From Haloferax gibbonsii ATCC 33959 (GTDB lineage Archaea; Halobacteriota; Halobacteria; Halobacteriales; Haloferacaceae), in the NCBI RefSeq assembly GCF_000336775.1, contig NZ_AOLJ01000011.1, positions 624,938 to 688,937 of the forward strand: 64,000 nucleotides of DNA, given 5' to 3'. The notes beneath the pieces were generated by a model. The model had not been told where the DNA came from and did not search any database. It saw only the letters and a list, made by a program, of their open reading frames with translations. Below, piece after piece: positions 31,740 through 41,157 of the stretch; the first letter of the stretch is position 1, and every line of letters begins with the position of its first letter. Both the position numbers and the translations under genes were made by a program.

Positions 31740-32486
31740 ATGCCGATTCCCCCCAGAACCACCGCGCTCGTCGGCGTTGCCGGCGGCGCGGGGACGACCC
31801 GACTGACGCTCGAACTCGCCGCGGCGCTCGCGACCGACGGTCGCGACGTGGCGGTCCTCGACGCGGCGTTCGCCACGCAGGGGCTCTCGGACTACGTCTC
31901 GGGAGCGCTCGACCCCGACGCGACGTCGCTCGTCACCGACGCGGCGGACGTGCCGCTGGAGTCGGGGCTGGTAGACTTCGAGACCGACGCCGAGGGACGC
32001 GTCGCCGTCTGCCCCGCCGCGGCCCCGTTCGAGCGACTCGCGCGGGCGATGACCCCCGATGCCGCACGGGCGTTCGAGGGTCGCATCGCCGAAGCCGCAG
32101 ACAGCTTCGACCACGTGCTCGTCGACGCGCCGCTCCTCGCGTCGAATCAGACTGTCGCCGCCGCCGCGGCCTGCGACAGCGTCGCGCTCGTCGCGCCCGC
32201 CACGGACCGCGGTGCCGACGCCGTCGGTCGTCTCAGCGCCCGGGCCGCCGACATCGGCGCTGATATCGACGCGGTCGTCTCCACGCTCGGCGCGCTCGGC
32301 GACGCGGACGTGATTGTTCCCGAGACCGAGGCGAACGACATCGCCGACGCGCCGGCGTGCCGCGACGACGCCGACCTCGCGGCGGGCGTCGCCGCGGTCG
32401 CGGAGGTCCTCCTCGACGTGGAACTCGATTCGGTGACGGCCGCCGGCGGCGTGCTCACCTCGGTCGGCGAGTACGTCCGTCGCTGA
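31740..32486 (+). CDS. MinD/ParA-like protein with degenerate P-loop
   Basis: 248 residues folded like a MinD/ParA ATPase: GVAGGAGTTRLTLELAAAL (about 12-30), VAVLDAAFATQGLS at the switch I region, HVLVDAPLLASNQTV at Walker B, and DSVALVAPATDRGAD. The deviant Walker A KGGxGKT is changed to AGGAGTT: both the signature lysine and the P-loop lysine are gone, so normal ATP hydrolysis is doubtful. An intact MinD-type gene lies 1.8 kb away on the other strand. TATTAATTCG about 30 bases before the ATG is the likely TATA box. Confidence 0.8.
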   Translation: MPIPPRTTALVGVAGGAGTTRLTLELAAALATDGRDVAVLDAAFATQGLSDYVSGALDPDATSLVTDAADVPLESGLVDFETDAEGRVAVCPAAAPFERLARAMTPDAARAFEGRIAEAADSFDHVLVDAPLLASNQTVAAAAACDSVALVAPATDRGADAVGRLSARAADIGADIDAVVSTLGALGDADVIVPETEANDIADAPACRDDADLAAGVAAVAEVLLDVELDSVTAAGGVLTSVGEYVRR

Positions 32487-32588: not shown

Positions 32589-33110
32589 TCAGAACTGCAT
32601 GTCGGTGACCGAGCTCATGGTCTCGGCCAGCGAGTCGCGCTTCGCGACGGCCGCGTCGGTGCGGTCGGTCAGCGCGCCCTCGACGGCTTCGACGAGGGGG
32701 TCGATGGGGTCGTGCGTCTCGACGTACGTCGCGAGTGCGAACTCCGACGGCTCGGCGCCGGTGAGCGCGAGCGCGTCGGCGCGCGAGATTCGTCCGTCGA
32801 TCCAATCGCGGACGATGCGTCGCGCCTCGGGTGCGAGGGGAGTCACGCCCGCTTCGCCGCAACGGTGCAAGACTTTCGCCGCCGTGACCGGAGCGACGCC
32901 TGCGTCGCTCGCGCTCTCGCCGACTGACGTGCCCGACCCGTGTGCTTCGACAACCCGCTCCGCGGCCGCAGGCGCACAGGGGAGCGCGTCTGCGTGCGCC
33001 TCGAAGCGCTCGCGGAGGGAAACACCGGTGTCGTCGACAGTCGGAACGCAGCGCGAGCGCTGTTCAGTCGTCGTCGTCTCTAACGCGGCGGCGATATCCG
33101 ACAGTCCCAT
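32589..33110 (-). CDS. Conserved-looking helical protein, unknown
   Basis: 173 residues, mostly helical. A middle segment (TSVGESASDAGVAPVTAAKVLHRCG) looks like an HTH, followed by VRDWIDGRISRADALALTGAEPSEFALATYVETHDPI. Probably a haloarchaea-specific DNA- or RNA-associated protein. Start taken at MGLSDIAAAL (33110). It is divergent from the TFB gene, and its tail converges on the degenerate MinD-like gene. Confidence 0.75.
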   Translation of the reverse strand: MGLSDIAAALETTTTEQRSRCVPTVDDTGVSLRERFEAHADALPCAPAAAERVVEAHGSGTSVGESASDAGVAPVTAAKVLHRCGEAGVTPLAPEARRIVRDWIDGRISRADALALTGAEPSEFALATYVETHDPIDPLVEAVEGALTDRTDAAVAKRDSLAETMSSVTDMQF

Positions 33111-33236
33111 CGCTCGGTGGTCCGCACCTATCAAGTAAAAGCGTTCCTAATCAGTATCAAAATTGAGTCTGAAACCCACCGGTTACCGGTAGGCTCTAGC
33201 GGCAGTAATCGGGGTTCTACCCCCGTTTCAACCCGT

Positions 33237-34243: not shown

Positions 34244-34906
34244 CTACCGACCGCTTACGCGAACCGCGTCCGCGAGTTCTCGAACGCGACTACTGGGAAG
34301 GCTCTTCGGCGACGACGCGACGACCGGCTCGAACCGCTCGACCGCCTCGGCCAGTCGAGAGTCCGCGGGGACCGCCGTCGCCGGCGCGCCGAGCACGTCG
34401 GCGAAGGCGTCGAGCGGCACCTCGTCGACGACGCGGTTGACCGCGACGGCGGCGAGCCCGCAGTCGAGTTCGCGCGCGAGTTCGCGGGTCCGCACCGCGT
34501 CGGCCAGCGCGTACCCCTTCGGGGACGCGACCACGAGGCAGGCGTCGGCGACGGTGAGCGGAACGCCGGCGTCGGCGCGCATCCCCGCGGGGCAGTCCAC
34601 GACCACGTCGCCGTAGGCCGCTTCGACCGCGTGAAGCGCGTCGGCGAGGAGACGCACGTCGGCCGCCCGCGCGCCGGCGAGCGTCCGACCGCACGGCAGA
34701 ATCGAGACCGGGCCGCCCGAGCGGACGGCTTCGAGCGGGTCCGCGCGCCCCGCGAGCACGTCGTGGAGGTCTGGGCCGGGCGCGTACGGGAGGTTCGCCA
34801 TCCCGAGGTCGGCGTCGACGACGACCGCGCCCAGTTCCGCCGCGAGTTCGAACGACAGCGTCGACTTCCCGACGCCGCCCTTCCCGGAGACGACCGCGAG
34901 AATCAC
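34244..34906 (-). CDS. MinD-type ATPase (MinD1-like)
   Basis: 220 residues. SGKGGVGKSTLSFELA (8-23) is an intact deviant Walker A with the signature lysine; VVVDADLGMANL is switch I and VVVDCPAGMRADA is Walker B. It dimerises on ATP. An amphipathic membrane-targeting tail like that of bacterial MinD is not clear. GTG start overlaps the upstream stop (GTGA). From memory H. volcanii MinD1 lies at this place on the chromosome; MinD paralogues there position polar complexes rather than FtsZ. Confidence 0.9.
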   Translation of the reverse strand: MILAVVSGKGGVGKSTLSFELAAELGAVVVDADLGMANLPYAPGPDLHDVLAGRADPLEAVRSGGPVSILPCGRTLAGARAADVRLLADALHAVEAAYGDVVVDCPAGMRADAGVPLTVADACLVVASPKGYALADAVRTRELARELDCGLAAVAVNRVVDEVPLDAFADVLGAPATAVPADSRLAEAVERFEPVVASSPKSLPSSRVRELADAVRVSGR

Positions 34907-35811
34907 GCGAGCCTCCGAAGCGCGTCCACGTCGGGGTCGGCGTCGGCGGCGCGGTCCGCGAGCGCCGTCGCGCGCGCCGCGAGTCGGCGAAGACGCTCCC
35001 GGTCCGCGTCGAGCGAGTCGAGCGCGTCGATGCAGACATCGGCCTCCGAGAGCGTCGCCGCGGCGTCGGCGACCGACGCGCCGTCCAGTCGCTCGGCGAG
35101 GTCGATGCGACGCTCGAACGCCGCGAGCGACTCCAGCGACTCCGGCGGCTCCAGCGACTCCGGCGGCTCCGGCGGCTCCGACCCGAGCGACTGGTCAGTC
35201 CCGCGGCCGCGTTCCTCGGAAGTCCCGACCGCCGCCGACACGTCCGCGTCCGTGGGCTGTTCGGACGGTTTGGGACGTTCGGAGCGGGTCTGTGGTTCGG
35301 GGCTCGGAAGCGGCTCGCGGCGCTCGCCATCTGACGCGTCGCTCGTCGTGCTGGGCGTCGGTTCGGGCGTCTCCGACTCCCGCGTCGTCGGCGGCAGGTC
35401 AGAAGAGACGGGGACTGCATCGGCCGGCGGCCGCGCCGAACCGAGCGTTCGAACCGCATCGTCGGGCGTCGAATCGCTGGCTCGCTCCGCCTCGTCGGCG
35501 CGACCGAGCACGTCGATGCCGACCGCGTGTTCGGGGCGGGCGTCGAGGTCGGCGGTCGCGGTGTCGCGGGTGGCCGTCGACGACGGGGAGACGGCGTAGC
35601 CGAGCGCGACCGTCGAGCCCGCGGGGACGACGCCTTCGAACCCCTCGTCGTCCCAACCGGCTTCGGGAACGCCGGCGCGACGCGGCGGGAGCACCGACCC
35701 GTCGAGTCGGTTGCGAAGCCTGACGCGCCGGTCGACCGGCGCGTCGTTGTGGACTCGGACCGAGACGAGGGCGACGCCGTCGTCCACGGTCACGTCGATA
35801 TCGGAGTGCAT
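34903..35811 (-). CDS. Unknown protein, beta-domain plus acidic linker plus helical end
   Basis: 302 residues in three parts. Residues 1-85 look like an Ig/CARDB-like beta domain (VTVDDGVALVSVRVHNDAPVD, VPAGSTVALGYAV). Residues 95-220 are a Ser/Thr/Pro/Glu-rich linker including a repeat of PESLEPPESLESL units, encoded by imperfect 18-base tandem repeats near 35140-35180. Residues 222-302 are helical. Its end is coupled to minD by overlap, suggesting a direct partner. No known family. Confidence 0.8.
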   Translation of the reverse strand: MHSDIDVTVDDGVALVSVRVHNDAPVDRRVRLRNRLDGSVLPPRRAGVPEAGWDDEGFEGVVPAGSTVALGYAVSPSSTATRDTATADLDARPEHAVGIDVLGRADEAERASDSTPDDAVRTLGSARPPADAVPVSSDLPPTTRESETPEPTPSTTSDASDGERREPLPSPEPQTRSERPKPSEQPTDADVSAAVGTSEERGRGTDQSLGSEPPEPPESLEPPESLESLAAFERRIDLAERLDGASVADAAATLSEADVCIDALDSLDADRERLRRLAARATALADRAADADPDVDALRRLA

Positions 35812-35862
35812 GGCGGGGCTGGCCGCCGCTTCGTATATAAATCAACGCCCGGTGTGGCTCGC

Positions 35863-36828
35863 TCACCCGTCGTTCGGCCGGCATCTGACGACCGGCGCGT
35901 CGAGCCAGTTCGCCGCGGCGTCGGCGTCCGAAACCCGGCCGCCCGAGATGACGACCGGGGCGGACAGGTCGGCGAGGCGGGCGGCGGCGAGCGCGCGTGC
36001 GACGGGGTCCGATTCGAAGTCGGCCACCGACGCGGGCGACTCCGCAGTCGCCATCAGCGATGGGGCCGCCGCGAGGCTCCGGAGCGCCGCCTCGAACGCA
36101 TCGCCGAGTTCGGCCGCGAAGTACGCCCGCGCCTCTCGACGGCGGTTCTCGACCGCGTCTTCGAGTTTGAGTCGCGCCTCGCGGCTGTCTCGCTCGGTTC
36201 GGGCCGCCCGTTCGAGCGCCGAAAGCCGCTGTTCGGCCGCGACGCGTTCGGTTTCGACCTCGGAGAGTTCGGTCGCGACCGCCACGAGTTCCGATTGCGC
36301 CGTCTCGGTCGCCTCGTCGTCGCCGGCGTCTCGGTGAGCGTTCACCCGACCGCGAAGGGTTGCGACGCGCTCTCTGAGTCGGGACTCGTCCTCGCCGGCG
36401 GCGGCGACGCGGCGGCGGGCCTCGCGGAGCGCGGCCGCGGACGTGTCGACGGGTTCGCGCTCGTCCGCCTCCACATCCACCCCGTCGTCGCGGCGCTCGG
36501 CGAGTTTCGCTTCGAGTCGGTCGAGGTCGTCGGCGACGGGAGAGCGAAGCCCGCGGGACCGACCGACCGCCGCGAGGAGCCAGCCGCGGGACGGTGTCTG
36601 CTTCGAGACGGGAATCCGACCGAGGCGGTCGTACCCGGAACCCGGCGGCGGACAGTCGATTCGGAGCGCGCCGGTCCCGTCGTCCCCGTCATTCCCGTCG
36701 TCCCCGTCGCCCCCATCGTCCACCCGTATGGCAGCGACGACCTCGTCGGCACCGACGTCGAACGGTCCGTCGGCGAGGTCGATAGCCGGTCCTTCGCGGA
36801 CGGTCCCGTCGAGGAGTCGAAGCCTCAT
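35863..36828 (-). CDS. Unknown coiled-coil protein of the MinD operon
   Basis: 321 residues: an N-terminal beta-rich part (MRLRLLDGTVREGPAIDL) interrupted by an Asp/Gly run (DGGDGDDGNDGDDGTG, from 9-base DNA repeats near 36680-36715). A long predicted coiled coil follows (about 125-245, LREARRRVAAAGEDESRLRE ... LERAARTERDSREARLKLEDA), then a C-terminal alpha/beta end. ATGA overlap with the preceding 112-residue gene shows coupled translation. Confidence 0.8.
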   Translation of the reverse strand: MRLRLLDGTVREGPAIDLADGPFDVGADEVVAAIRVDDGGDGDDGNDGDDGTGALRIDCPPPGSGYDRLGRIPVSKQTPSRGWLLAAVGRSRGLRSPVADDLDRLEAKLAERRDDGVDVEADEREPVDTSAAALREARRRVAAAGEDESRLRERVATLRGRVNAHRDAGDDEATETAQSELVAVATELSEVETERVAAEQRLSALERAARTERDSREARLKLEDAVENRRREARAYFAAELGDAFEAALRSLAAAPSLMATAESPASVADFESDPVARALAAARLADLSAPVVISGGRVSDADAAANWLDAPVVRCRPNDG

Positions 36829-37163
36829 AGCTCGCGGCGCTGCATCTCCGCGGCCGACGGGTGGTCGGTGCCCGAGGCGAACTTGCTGTACGGCGTCGCC
36901 GGGGACTCGCGGTCCTCGTAGGCGGCCGCGGCCTCGCGGACCGCGTCCGGGACCGCCGCGAACTCGTTGAACGGTTCGGTTCGCTCGATCTGCACGGCCT
37001 CGTCGTGTTTCTCCCGAAGCCGAAGCGCGAGGAAGGCGGCCAACTCCGTCTCGTCGAAGAGCGCGGCGCGACCCAGTCGACGGACCACGACCTCGTCGTG
37101 GGTCCGACAGATGTTCCGAAGCGTCGTCCGCGCCGCCTGCGAGTAAGTCACGACCAACAGCAC
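36825..37163 (-). CDS. Unknown small protein of the MinD operon
   Basis: 112 residues, starting MLLVVTYSQAARTTLRNICR, with basic helices and a tail ending SAAEMQRREL. The conserved-looking segment EVVVRRLGRAALFDETELAAFLALRLREKH suggests a winged-helix-like or nucleic-acid binding fold, but I cannot confirm that. Overlaps the coiled-coil gene by 4 bases. Confidence 0.75.
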   Translation of the reverse strand: MLLVVTYSQAARTTLRNICRTHDEVVVRRLGRAALFDETELAAFLALRLREKHDEAVQIERTEPFNEFAAVPDAVREAAAAYEDRESPATPYSKFASGTDHPSAAEMQRREL

Positions 37164-37290
37164 GCACGCTCGGTCACGGAGTCGGGAGAAAAATCGTTCG
37201 ACAGCGGCGCTCTCGCGTCAGTCGACTGTCACAGACAGGGAGACTACGGCGTCTCACCCGAGTTCGAATCTCCGCGCGACTCGTCTCGCC

Positions 37291-37593
37291 TCAGACGCGC
37301 TCGACCGAGAACGTCACGTCGTCGGCGTCGCCGGCCGCCTCGTCAAGGAGGTCTCTGACCCGCGTCCGCGCGTCGGCCTCGTCGGCGGCGAGGACGACGA
37401 GACCCTCCGCGCGGTCGTCGCCGACGGCCGTCCACGCGTCGAGCGTTCCGTCACCGGCGTCGTCTTCGAACTCCGTCGCGAACGTCCGGAGGACGGTCAC
37501 GACGCGCCGCTCGGTGCTGGCGAGGTCCGCGTCGCCCGATTCGAGGTCGCGGATGGCGTCTTCGATGTTGCGGATGGCGGAGATTCGGTCCAT
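37291..37593 (-). CDS. Unknown 100-residue protein heading the MinD cluster
   Basis: From MDRISAIRNIEDAIRDLESGDADL: a helical N-terminal half and an alpha/beta C-terminal half (GLVVLAADEADARTRVRDLL). It lies 127 bases upstream of the 112-residue gene on the same strand; it could be the first gene of the operon or separately transcribed. No recognised domain. Confidence 0.7.
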   Translation of the reverse strand: MDRISAIRNIEDAIRDLESGDADLASTERRVVTVLRTFATEFEDDAGDGTLDAWTAVGDDRAEGLVVLAADEADARTRVRDLLDEAAGDADDVTFSVERV

Positions 37594-37681: not shown

Positions 37682-38788
37682 TCAGGAGCGTTCGTCCGGT
37701 AGGTCCTCGAAGAAGTCGGCGACGAACGTGAAGTGCTCCGCCACGAGGTCGCAGTCCGCGAAGGCCTCTCGCGCCTCGCTTTCGAGGGCGGTCTGCTTTT
37801 CGGGGATGTCGTTGTCGCCCGCGGTCGCCGCCTCGTCGAGCACCTCGCTGGCCCGCGCCATCGCGTCGGTGAGGCAGGCGAACTCCTCGGAGCGGGAGGC
37901 GATTGCCGCCACGGGGTCGCGTTCCGAGACCCGCGCGTTCACGTCCTCGAATGCGCTCATCGCCCGGAAGAACGACCCGGTGGCGTCGCCGTAGCTCTCG
38001 CCGAGGTACTCGTCGAACCCGTCCTGTAATCGTCGAATCGCGTCGCGGAACGAGACGATGTCGTCGGCGAAGGCCTCGAACTGACCGATCTCCCGCTCGA
38101 AAAAGTCGACCTTCCGCCCGTAGTCCGCCGGTTCGAGGGCGGTGAGTTCGTCGAGGGCGTCGGCCTCCGACTCCTTCCGTAAGCTATTGAGCGTGTCTCG
38201 CGTCGGTTCGAGCGCCTCCGCTATCTGTTGGACCTGCGTGTCGATGCGGTTGAACTCCTCGCCGTACAGCCTGGAGACCGCGTTGTTGGTGCGGTAGAAC
38301 GCCTGATTTGCGTTCTCGTGGGTCTTACCCGTCCACCAGAGGAACCAGAAGGCGCGTCGGAGACGCCCGAGACGCGCTCGCTGGGCGTCGGTCTTGTCGA
38401 GTTGGTCGAGCGTGTTGAAGTGGCCGCGCGCGAGGTATAGCGAGTCGGCGTCGTCCTCGAACGAGAACTGCGTCGTGGCGTTCAGGTCGTGGAAGCCGCC
38501 GTCTTCGCCCGCCACGGACGCGAAGTCATCGACCGCAGCGTCGAGGTCTTCCACGGCGAGGCCGAGGATTCGGTCCACTCTGTCCGGCTCTTCCGTGGTC
38601 GTCTCGGTCGTCGGCTCCTCCGTCGTCGTCGTCGGCTCCTCAGTCGTGGTCGTAGTCGGAGTTTCCGTCGCCGTCGGCGTGGCAGTCGTCGTCGTCGGCT
38701 CCTCCGTCGTCGTCTCCCCACCGTCCGCTGACGAACATCCCGCGAGGAAGAGTGCACCCGCGGTCGCCAGATACGCTCGACGATTCAT
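37682..38788 (-). CDS. Tat-exported lipoprotein, unknown function
   Basis: 368 residues. MNRRAYLATAGALFLAGCSS has twin arginines and a lipobox (LAGC, C18), so the protein is probably exported by Tat and anchored by lipid. Residues 20-68 are a Thr/Glu-rich spacer (EEPTTTT repeats) typical of haloarchaeal surface lipoproteins. The remaining 300 residues are helical and acidic, without a motif I know. It lies between the MinD cluster and mcm on the same strand but with separate gaps. Confidence 0.85.
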   Translation of the reverse strand: MNRRAYLATAGALFLAGCSSADGGETTTEEPTTTTATPTATETPTTTTTEEPTTTTEEPTTETTTEEPDRVDRILGLAVEDLDAAVDDFASVAGEDGGFHDLNATTQFSFEDDADSLYLARGHFNTLDQLDKTDAQRARLGRLRRAFWFLWWTGKTHENANQAFYRTNNAVSRLYGEEFNRIDTQVQQIAEALEPTRDTLNSLRKESEADALDELTALEPADYGRKVDFFEREIGQFEAFADDIVSFRDAIRRLQDGFDEYLGESYGDATGSFFRAMSAFEDVNARVSERDPVAAIASRSEEFACLTDAMARASEVLDEAATAGDNDIPEKQTALESEAREAFADCDLVAEHFTFVADFFEDLPDERS

Positions 38789-38928: not shown

Positions 38929-41037
38929 TCAGGTCGCGCGGTAGACGTCGCCGCGGGGCTCGTAGATGTCGCCTTTCATCTTGAGCTTGTCCAGCTGGTC
39001 GTTGACCGTCTTCTCGTCCATGTTCAGCTCGCTGTTGGCGCGTTCGAGGACCTCCTCGTGGGGCGCGCCCTCCTCGTACTCCTCCTGCATGGTGCGGATG
39101 AGTTCGAGCAGGTTCTTGATGCGGTCGCGCTGGGTCTTCGAGCGGCCGGTCTCGACGATGTCGGCGTCGAACTCGCCGGTTTCCGGGTCCATGCCGATGT
39201 CGCGCAGGCAGGACTCGACGATGCCCGTGACGCGCTCTGCGTCCTCGCGGGTCACCTTGTCCGAGAGGCGGACGCGAGCGGACGCCTCGCCGAGCCGGAC
39301 GAGCGCTTCGAGCTTCCGGGCGGTCACGGGGACGGGCGCGTCCTCGTCGGCGCCGCGGGCGCGGAAGTCCACGTAGAAGTCGCGGATGACCTGCTTCGCC
39401 TCGTCGGTCATCGTCGGGTAGCAGGTGCGCTTCGAGTAGGCGATGTACTTGCGGAGGAGCTCCGCGTCGATGGTGGGCGCGACCTCGTCGGTGACGGCGT
39501 CGACCTGCTGTTCCGTGAACTCGGAGTTGGCGACGTTCGTCCGCTGGGTGTTCAGCTCGCCCGCGTAGTTGGTCTTGAGGATGTGGTCCGCGAGCTTGGA
39601 GTCCTCGTCGGGGTCGGGGTCGTCGGTGACCGTGAAGATGAGGTCGAACCGGGAGATGAGCGCGGGTTCGAGGTCGATCTGCTCGCCGATTGGCTCGTAC
39701 TGGTCGAAGCGGCCGTACTTCGGGTTCGCCGCGCCGAGGAGCGAACACCGCGACTTCAGCGTCGCGTTGATGCCGGCCTTGGAGACCGAAATCTGCTGTT
39801 GTTCGAGCCCCTCGTGCATCGCGGAGCGGTCCTCGGGCCGCATCTTGTCCAGCTCGTCGACCGCCGCGATACCCTTGTCCGCGAGGACGAGCGCGCCGGC
39901 TTCGAGCGTCCACTGCTGGCCGTCGCCGAAGTCGTCGCGGACGGCGGCGGCGGTGAGACCCGCCGAGGACGAACCCTTGCCGGAGGTGTAGACCGACCGG
40001 GGAGCAATATGTCTAATGTATGACAACATCTGCGATTTGCCAGTTCCGGGGTCCCCTATCAGCAGCATGTGCAGGTCGCCGCGAATCCGCGACCCGTCGG
40101 GCAGGTGTTTCGTGACGCCCGAGAACAGTTGGAGAATCATGGCCATCTTCTCCTGCTCGTAGCCGTAGATGGCGGGCGCGACGGACTCGACCATCTTCTC
40201 GTAGATGGCCGGGTCGTTCGAGAGTTCGACGATTTCGGCCACGTCCTCGTCGGATATCTCCATGTCCTCGAACTCCTCGTCCTCGATGGTGAGCGAGATG
40301 CCCTCCATGTAGTAGTCGAAGACGGGCGTCTTCTCGTTGCCCGAGGTCTGCTGTTCGATGTGGAGGATGCCGACCGCGGTGACGTGGTCGCCGGCGGTGA
40401 CTTTGCCGGTCACGTCGTCCGAGAGGTTGATGTCGATGCTCTGCGGCGTCTCGCCCCCGCGCAGGCCCTCGGGGGACTCCTGGACGCGCAGCTTCTGGGA
40501 GTCGATGAAGTTCGACTGGTCGAAGTCGATGCGGAACGGCCCCTGACGCTCGCATCCCTGACACTCGTGTGGTTCCTGAAAGCCGCCGTCGCCCTGCGGG
40601 ATGTAGCTCATCGTCCCGCAGCGCTGGCACTCGAAGGCGGCCTCCGTGATTTTCGGGCGCACGTCGGTCGCCTTGCGGACGATTCCCTGCACCGAGATGA
40701 GCGTCCCGATGTGGTCGTCGTTGACCCGGATGTTCCGGATATCGACCGTCTCGGGGAGGTTGCGCATCCGGACGTGCGCCTGACCGAGCTTCACGTCCGC
40801 GGGGAGGTCGAACAGGCGCAGGGCCTCCTCGGCGTACTCCTGGAACTGGCCGGGCTTCGTGATGTAGTCGTCGGCGAGCTCCGCGTCGAACCGATAGAGG
40901 TCGTCGTAATCGATGTACAGCGACCGCTTTTCCTTCGGATACTGCTGTGCGAGTTTTCCGATCTCCTCTCGATAGTAGTTGCGGTAGAACTCGATGAACC
41001 GCTCCGTCAGGTCTCGGTTCTGGGGGGCCTGCGCCAT
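38929..41037 (-). CDS. mcm: Replicative MCM helicase
   Basis: 702 residues. N-terminal OB/zinc domain with C137, C140, C159, C162; Walker A GDPGTGKS (328-335); Walker B AVDELDK (D394, E395); sensor 1 GAANP; arginine finger SRFDL (R463); a winged helix lies at the C-terminus (NSELNMDEKTVNDQLDKLKMKGDIY). It unwinds DNA ahead of the replication fork as a hexamer. Many haloarchaeal mcm genes hold inteins at these motifs; none is present here. MAQAPQNRDLTERF (41037) is the start; TTCTTAACC about 30 bases upstream is the TATA-like element. Confidence 0.97.
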   Translation of the reverse strand: MAQAPQNRDLTERFIEFYRNYYREEIGKLAQQYPKEKRSLYIDYDDLYRFDAELADDYITKPGQFQEYAEEALRLFDLPADVKLGQAHVRMRNLPETVDIRNIRVNDDHIGTLISVQGIVRKATDVRPKITEAAFECQRCGTMSYIPQGDGGFQEPHECQGCERQGPFRIDFDQSNFIDSQKLRVQESPEGLRGGETPQSIDINLSDDVTGKVTAGDHVTAVGILHIEQQTSGNEKTPVFDYYMEGISLTIEDEEFEDMEISDEDVAEIVELSNDPAIYEKMVESVAPAIYGYEQEKMAMILQLFSGVTKHLPDGSRIRGDLHMLLIGDPGTGKSQMLSYIRHIAPRSVYTSGKGSSSAGLTAAAVRDDFGDGQQWTLEAGALVLADKGIAAVDELDKMRPEDRSAMHEGLEQQQISVSKAGINATLKSRCSLLGAANPKYGRFDQYEPIGEQIDLEPALISRFDLIFTVTDDPDPDEDSKLADHILKTNYAGELNTQRTNVANSEFTEQQVDAVTDEVAPTIDAELLRKYIAYSKRTCYPTMTDEAKQVIRDFYVDFRARGADEDAPVPVTARKLEALVRLGEASARVRLSDKVTREDAERVTGIVESCLRDIGMDPETGEFDADIVETGRSKTQRDRIKNLLELIRTMQEEYEEGAPHEEVLERANSELNMDEKTVNDQLDKLKMKGDIYEPRGDVYRAT

Positions 41038-41157
41038 CGCACAAGGGTATGTCCCCAATCGGTTAAGAACCTTCGTCGTTCGGCCGACCCTCCGTCGTCC
41101 CGACGGGTCGGCCGTGCACCGAGACTCGCGCGGCCCGAGGGGTCACAGCGGCCGCCG

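Follow-up and report, generated by a model that had tools for sequence, protein, structure and literature searches.

A gene for a MinD-type ATPase closes a row of five genes in the window (the whole stretch of 64,000 nucleotides that was analysed), raising the question of which of its neighbours, if any, belongs functionally with the ATPase. The earlier note had proposed that the ATPase and its four neighbours, which it called unrecognised, form one haloarchaeal positioning system. The arrangement it described was confirmed: the five genes with their sizes, the ATGA and GTGA overlaps and a 127-nt gap between DUF7854 and DUF7855 are all present on the minus strand (Table 1), and a gap of 51 nt lies between DUF7856 and DUF7857. 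However, the label "unrecognised" had to be corrected, since all four neighbours match Pfam models, DUF7854 with 116 bits, DUF7855 with 193 bits, DUF7856 with 292 bits and DUF7857 (PF25256) with 145.8 bits against a curated cut-off of 27. These four families have no assigned function, and a literature search on the names DUF7854-DUF7857 and on HVO_0223 and HVO_0224 found no papers in the collection searched. The coiled-coil protein of the earlier note was identified as DUF7856, which has a helical SMC-like centre with weak NCBIfam SMC matches. No Rfam match was found, and no relatives were found in viral contigs.

Table 1. Coordinates of the features at the MinD1 locus, and of ParA-DUF7125 fusion genes at other loci
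Feature	Position	Strand	Remark
ParA/MinD-like gene	31740-32486	+	Walker A GGAGTTR
DUF7858 gene	32589-33134	-	
MinD1, 220 aa	34244..34906	-	MinD-type P-loop ATPase, start GTG
GTGA stop/start overlap, DUF7857/MinD1	34903..34906	-	4 nt
DUF7857 protein, 302 aa	34903..35811	-	ATG start; candidate MinD1 partner
TTTATATA	35834..35841	-	TATA-like element, 30 nt upstream of DUF7857 ATG
DUF7856 protein, 321 aa	35863..36828	-	coiled coil in centre; unit shared with DUF7855
DUF7855 protein, 112 aa	36825..37163	-	start GTG; ATGA overlap with DUF7856
ATTTTT	37189..37194	-	AT-rich element, ~30 nt upstream of DUF7855 start
DUF7854 protein, 100 aa	37291..37593	-	
Lipoprotein gene	37682-38788	-	between MCM and DUF7854
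MCM gene	38929-41058	-	
ParA-DUF7125 fusions beside relocated pairs	L092:3938-5290, L110:7520-8806, L117:3845-5455, L085:2786-4072, L111:4272-5726		

The 24 MinD sequences from DUF7857 loci, placed in a tree together with further MinD and ParA sequences of haloarchaea, formed one clade (SH-aLRT 99) that is distinct from the other MinDs. The published locus tags of H. volcanii, HVO_0220 for MCM (PMC3972481), HVO_0225 for MinD1 (PMC11621097) and HVO_0226 for TFB (PMC7714728), imply that MCM and MinD1 are separated by four genes, with TFB next after MinD1, which is the order of most loci here, and the DUF7854-DUF7857 families all have matches in H. volcanii. From the flanking gene order, these tags and the four DUF matches, the MinD of the window is apparently the ortholog of H. 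volcanii MinD1, a protein for which the cited papers describe neither function nor partner.

MinD1 carries the deviant Walker A motif GKGGVGKST and the Walker B motif VVVDCPAG, and the residues G8, K9, G10, G11, G13, K14, D31, D33 and D104 were invariant among 45 aligned sequences. Its matches to the Pfam models ParA, AAA_31 and CbiA lie above their cut-offs, placing it in the ParA/MinD superfamily. The profile match to 1hyq covers almost the full length (E 4e-42), and by near-full-length alignment and deviant Walker A motif MinD1 resembles the archaeal MinD structures (1hyq, 1g3q) and bacterial MinD. However, it differs from MinCDE and archaeal MinD in scoring 121.8 bits against the NCBIfam model minD_arch (TIGR01969; cut-off 201.75), in having no C-terminal membrane helix, and in its neighbours; among these Pfam gave only DUF7854-DUF7857, and neither MinE nor MinC. 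A crude motif test found a membrane-helix-like C-terminal tail in 1 of 77 MinD1 sequences, versus 7 of 13 haloarchaeal paralogues. The last 20 residues of MinD1 have a mean charge of +1.0, compared with -0.9 in other segments of the same proteins, and 27% reach +3. The missing helix and weakly basic tail suggest that MinD1 is more likely to be cytoplasmic or on the nucleoid than to be a membrane oscillator of the Min type. With one archaeal MinD family devoid of the membrane helix, archaeal MinDs should not be presumed to be membrane oscillators.

The row of five genes splits into three conserved units, MCM-DUF7854, DUF7855-DUF7856 and DUF7857-MinD1. DUF7854 starts at -1 to +5 nt from the MCM stop codon in 35 of 39 loci, a closeness that makes it a candidate for coupling to MCM. 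MCM and DUF7854 are separated in the window by a lipoprotein gene, an insertion that was seen in only two further fetched loci. The second unit is held together by a 4-nt overlap of DUF7855 and DUF7856 in 46 of 56 loci. A peak in AT content lies 30 nt before DUF7857 (0.82-0.93) and before DUF7855 (0.80-0.96) against a background of ~0.3-0.5, and no such peak was found before MinD1 or DUF7854. A position 30 nt upstream of the start codon is where the TATA box of leaderless transcripts is expected. Conservation of the TATA-like element before DUF7857 therefore predicts that DUF7857 and MinD1 form a transcription unit of their own. The units are also separable in their presence: DUF7854, DUF7855 and DUF7856 each occur in 88-92 of the 145 genomes sampled, 20 genomes with the DUF7857-MinD1 pair lack DUF7856, and DUF7854-DUF7856 remain beside MCM in loci without the pair (L119-L122, L128-L131). 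The separate promoter-like elements and the separable presence of the three units led us to reject a single five-gene operon and leave DUF7857-MinD1 as the only MinD-linked unit.

We then followed this pair through 145 haloarchaeal genomes of 10 families, with DUF7857 detected by Pfam and MinD1 by tblastn. DUF7857 was found in 104 and MinD1 in 101 of these genomes, the weakest MinD1 (133 bits) being separated from the best paralogue (104 bits) in the tblastn search. Both genes are present in 101 genomes, in 100 by Pfam and in one (G128) by a sensitive profile; this genome seemed to contain MinD1 only, and a divergent DUF7857 gene lies directly upstream of its MinD1. No genome has MinD1 alone, four genomes of one genus retain DUF7857 without MinD1, and 40 have neither, so that DUF7857 is missing from 40 of the 44 genomes without MinD1. 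When the sensitive profile was run on the 41 Pfam-negative genomes, no missed case beyond G128 was found; a match in G075 was marginal (E 0.005) and confined to the C-terminal helical part. The co-occurrence of MinD1 and DUF7857 gives a Fisher p of 6e-30, a statistic that, like the counts, ignores shared ancestry. Outside the haloarchaeal class no member of the DUF7857 family was found above the cut-off. A sub-threshold DUF7857 match with an internal stop in another family of the phylum (G199:C9:222130-222318) is probably due to chance.

DUF7857 and MinD1 lie side by side at every locus inspected, and the 4-nt overlap was found in 75 of the 77 loci with an assignable MinD1 start. This adjacency far exceeds chance, as it is kept at each examined locus with both genes across haloarchaeal families. 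The conserved synteny with minD expected by the earlier note therefore holds for DUF7857, which is present in all 101 genomes with MinD1, and fails for DUF7854, DUF7855 and DUF7856, which remain at MCM after relocation or loss of the pair. The pair is unbroken both where it lies away from MCM and where it is duplicated. Two genomes carry two pairs, and both proteins of the extra pair are nearest to the same foreign loci; this sharing of nearest relatives indicates joint transfer. Near relocated pairs, a ParA-DUF7125 fusion gene was found in 15 loci of 8 genera, mostly facing MinD1; in these fusions DUF7125, a RecA/KaiC-like domain, is joined to a ParA-like ATPase. The genome of the window encodes DUF7125 and a ParA-like protein in two adjacent genes on a different contig. 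The matches listed by a scan of genome contigs with the MinD1 alignment were taken up by other ParA/MinD proteins, with no haloarchaeal MinD1 among them. Because MinD1 is always encoded with DUF7857, DUF7857 is the prime candidate for the missing partner of MinD1.

The structure of DUF7857 was predicted with AlphaFold2. It begins with an Ig-like beta-sandwich (pLDDT ~95 over residues 1-75), followed by a disordered linker, acidic and proline-rich, and a confident C-terminal helical segment, which agrees with the beta-domain protein with an acidic linker, overlapping the MinD gene, in the earlier note. Short forms of ~120 aa consist of the beta domain only. A Foldseek search using the DUF7857 model revealed only weak beta-sandwich matches, the VAP-A MSP domain (E 0.0065) among them. 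DUF7855 is predicted to adopt a ferredoxin-like beta-alpha-beta-beta-alpha-beta fold (pLDDT 96), for which Foldseek found nothing below E 0.058, and sequence profiles of the DUF families gave no significant match to solved structures.

These features were compared with known systems. Like the McdA-McdB and ParA-ParB systems, the MinD1 locus combines a ParA/MinD-type ATPase without a membrane helix with an adjoining lineage-specific gene for a putative partner. As expected of a partner, DUF7857 is both encoded beside the ATPase and inherited with it. However, the described partners of ParA/MinD proteins act through an N-terminus that is disordered and positively charged (PMC10241942), whereas DUF7857 begins with a folded beta domain whose first strand starts at residue 2 (pLDDT ~94) within an acidic sequence, MHSDIDVTVDDG. 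If DUF7857 is the partner, its contact with MinD1 should therefore differ from the known ones. The closest parallel among haloarchaea is MinD2-HVO_0596 of H. volcanii, likewise a haloarchaeal MinD whose proposed partner is a small conserved protein from the same apparent operon, but there the partner gene lies downstream of MinD2, and MinD2 affects motility and shape (PMC11588486). Deletion of HVO_0596, the conserved operon neighbour of MinD2, gave no phenotype (PMC11588486), which shows that a conserved minD neighbour need not share the phenotype. No MinE-like partner was found for the MinDs of H. volcanii (PMC11621097).

Considering these results, we suggest a dedicated ATPase/partner system made up of the two genes DUF7857 and MinD1, and we infer from the ATPase family that the two proteins bind each other; we put the probability of this reading at about 0.6. 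Thus the four neighbours as components of one positioning system, as envisaged in the earlier note, give way to MinD1 with one dedicated partner. MinD1 would cycle between an ATP-bound dimer and a monomer, as its conserved ATPase motifs suggest, and DUF7857 would bind the dimer. The beta domain of DUF7857 would be the constant part, and the linker and C-terminal helices, which the short forms lack, may reach towards a cargo or join copies of the protein. By analogy with the ATPase family only, the pair may position a cargo. A tentative extension, which we consider rather doubtful, is a spatial-organisation system of an undescribed kind: a MinD-derived ATPase, without the membrane helix through loss or from the outset, would act on a chromosome-linked cargo together with its Ig-like beta-sandwich partner, and the two would make contact otherwise than through the basic N-terminal peptide of known ParA/MinD partners. 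Positioning of the archaellum was considered as a role and is not supported: 16 genomes with MinD1 have no archaellins and 32 genomes with archaellins have no MinD1 (Fisher p 0.12), with PF01917, which may take in pilin-like proteins, as the archaellin proxy.

Other explanations of the locus have to be weighed against the two-gene system. The pair might be a switch or assembly factor, similar to FleN or BcsQ, that regulates an enzyme or transcription complex via DUF7857, and the MCM, TFB and ParA-DUF7125 neighbourhood would then point to DNA metabolism or transcription. This is consistent with the lack of a membrane helix in MinD1, with MCM, the replicative helicase, and TFB as neighbours in most families and with the recurrence of the ParA-DUF7125 fusion. 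The genetic data fit as well, as the published minD deletions, including the quadruple deletion in H. volcanii, gave no division phenotype (PMC11588486, PMC11621097), and the motility defect of the quadruple deletion is that of minD2/minD4, to which removal of minD1 and minD3 adds nothing (PMC11621097). However, the neighbourhood may simply be inherited gene order, and further relocated pairs, outside both contexts, adjoin unrelated metabolic genes; we regard a switch or assembly factor as unlikely. DUF7857 and MinD1 could also be functionally unrelated and adjacent only through gene order frozen near MCM, given that MCM, TFB, DUF7858, the lysine-less ParA-like gene and HIT likewise keep their order. 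A mirror-tree test (distance correlation) was uninformative, as it did not pick out DUF7857 as the partner of MinD1; TFB, DUF7858 and the ParA-like gene gave correlations as high as that of DUF7857, and MCM distances are a poor control. Yet only the pair stays together, its overlap unchanged, through relocation, duplication and horizontal transfer, and the presence and absence of its two genes are near-perfectly matched, so that a frozen order was already disfavoured and is very improbable.

A positioning system made of all five genes, with DUF7854-DUF7856 as further components, would explain why the genes are consecutive in most genomes and why MinD1 and DUF7856 tend to co-occur (81 genomes with both, 20 with MinD1 only, 7 with DUF7856 only and 37 with neither). 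However, those 20 and 7 genomes contain the pair without DUF7856 and DUF7856 without MinD1, DUF7854-DUF7856 are still found at MCM in loci L119-L122, from which the pair has moved, and promoter-like elements divide the row. In one genome without MinD1, a 527-codon open frame (L112:6206-7786, minus strand) runs from DUF7856 into DUF7857. As a functional link between the two it is weak, because the DUF7857 upstream sequence with its promoter-like element is kept inside the frame and the fusion may therefore be incidental. A five-gene system is thus distinctly unlikely.

For the two-gene system, a named candidate partner gene makes a direct test of MinD1 possible in the genetically tractable H. 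volcanii. Beyond MinD1, the DUF7858 gene keeps its place between TFB and the ParA/MinD-like gene in 40 loci. This ParA/MinD-like gene has no catalytic lysine in its Walker A motif (GGAGTTR), and the lack of this lysine is conserved in the 37 relatives that lie downstream of TFB and DUF7858.
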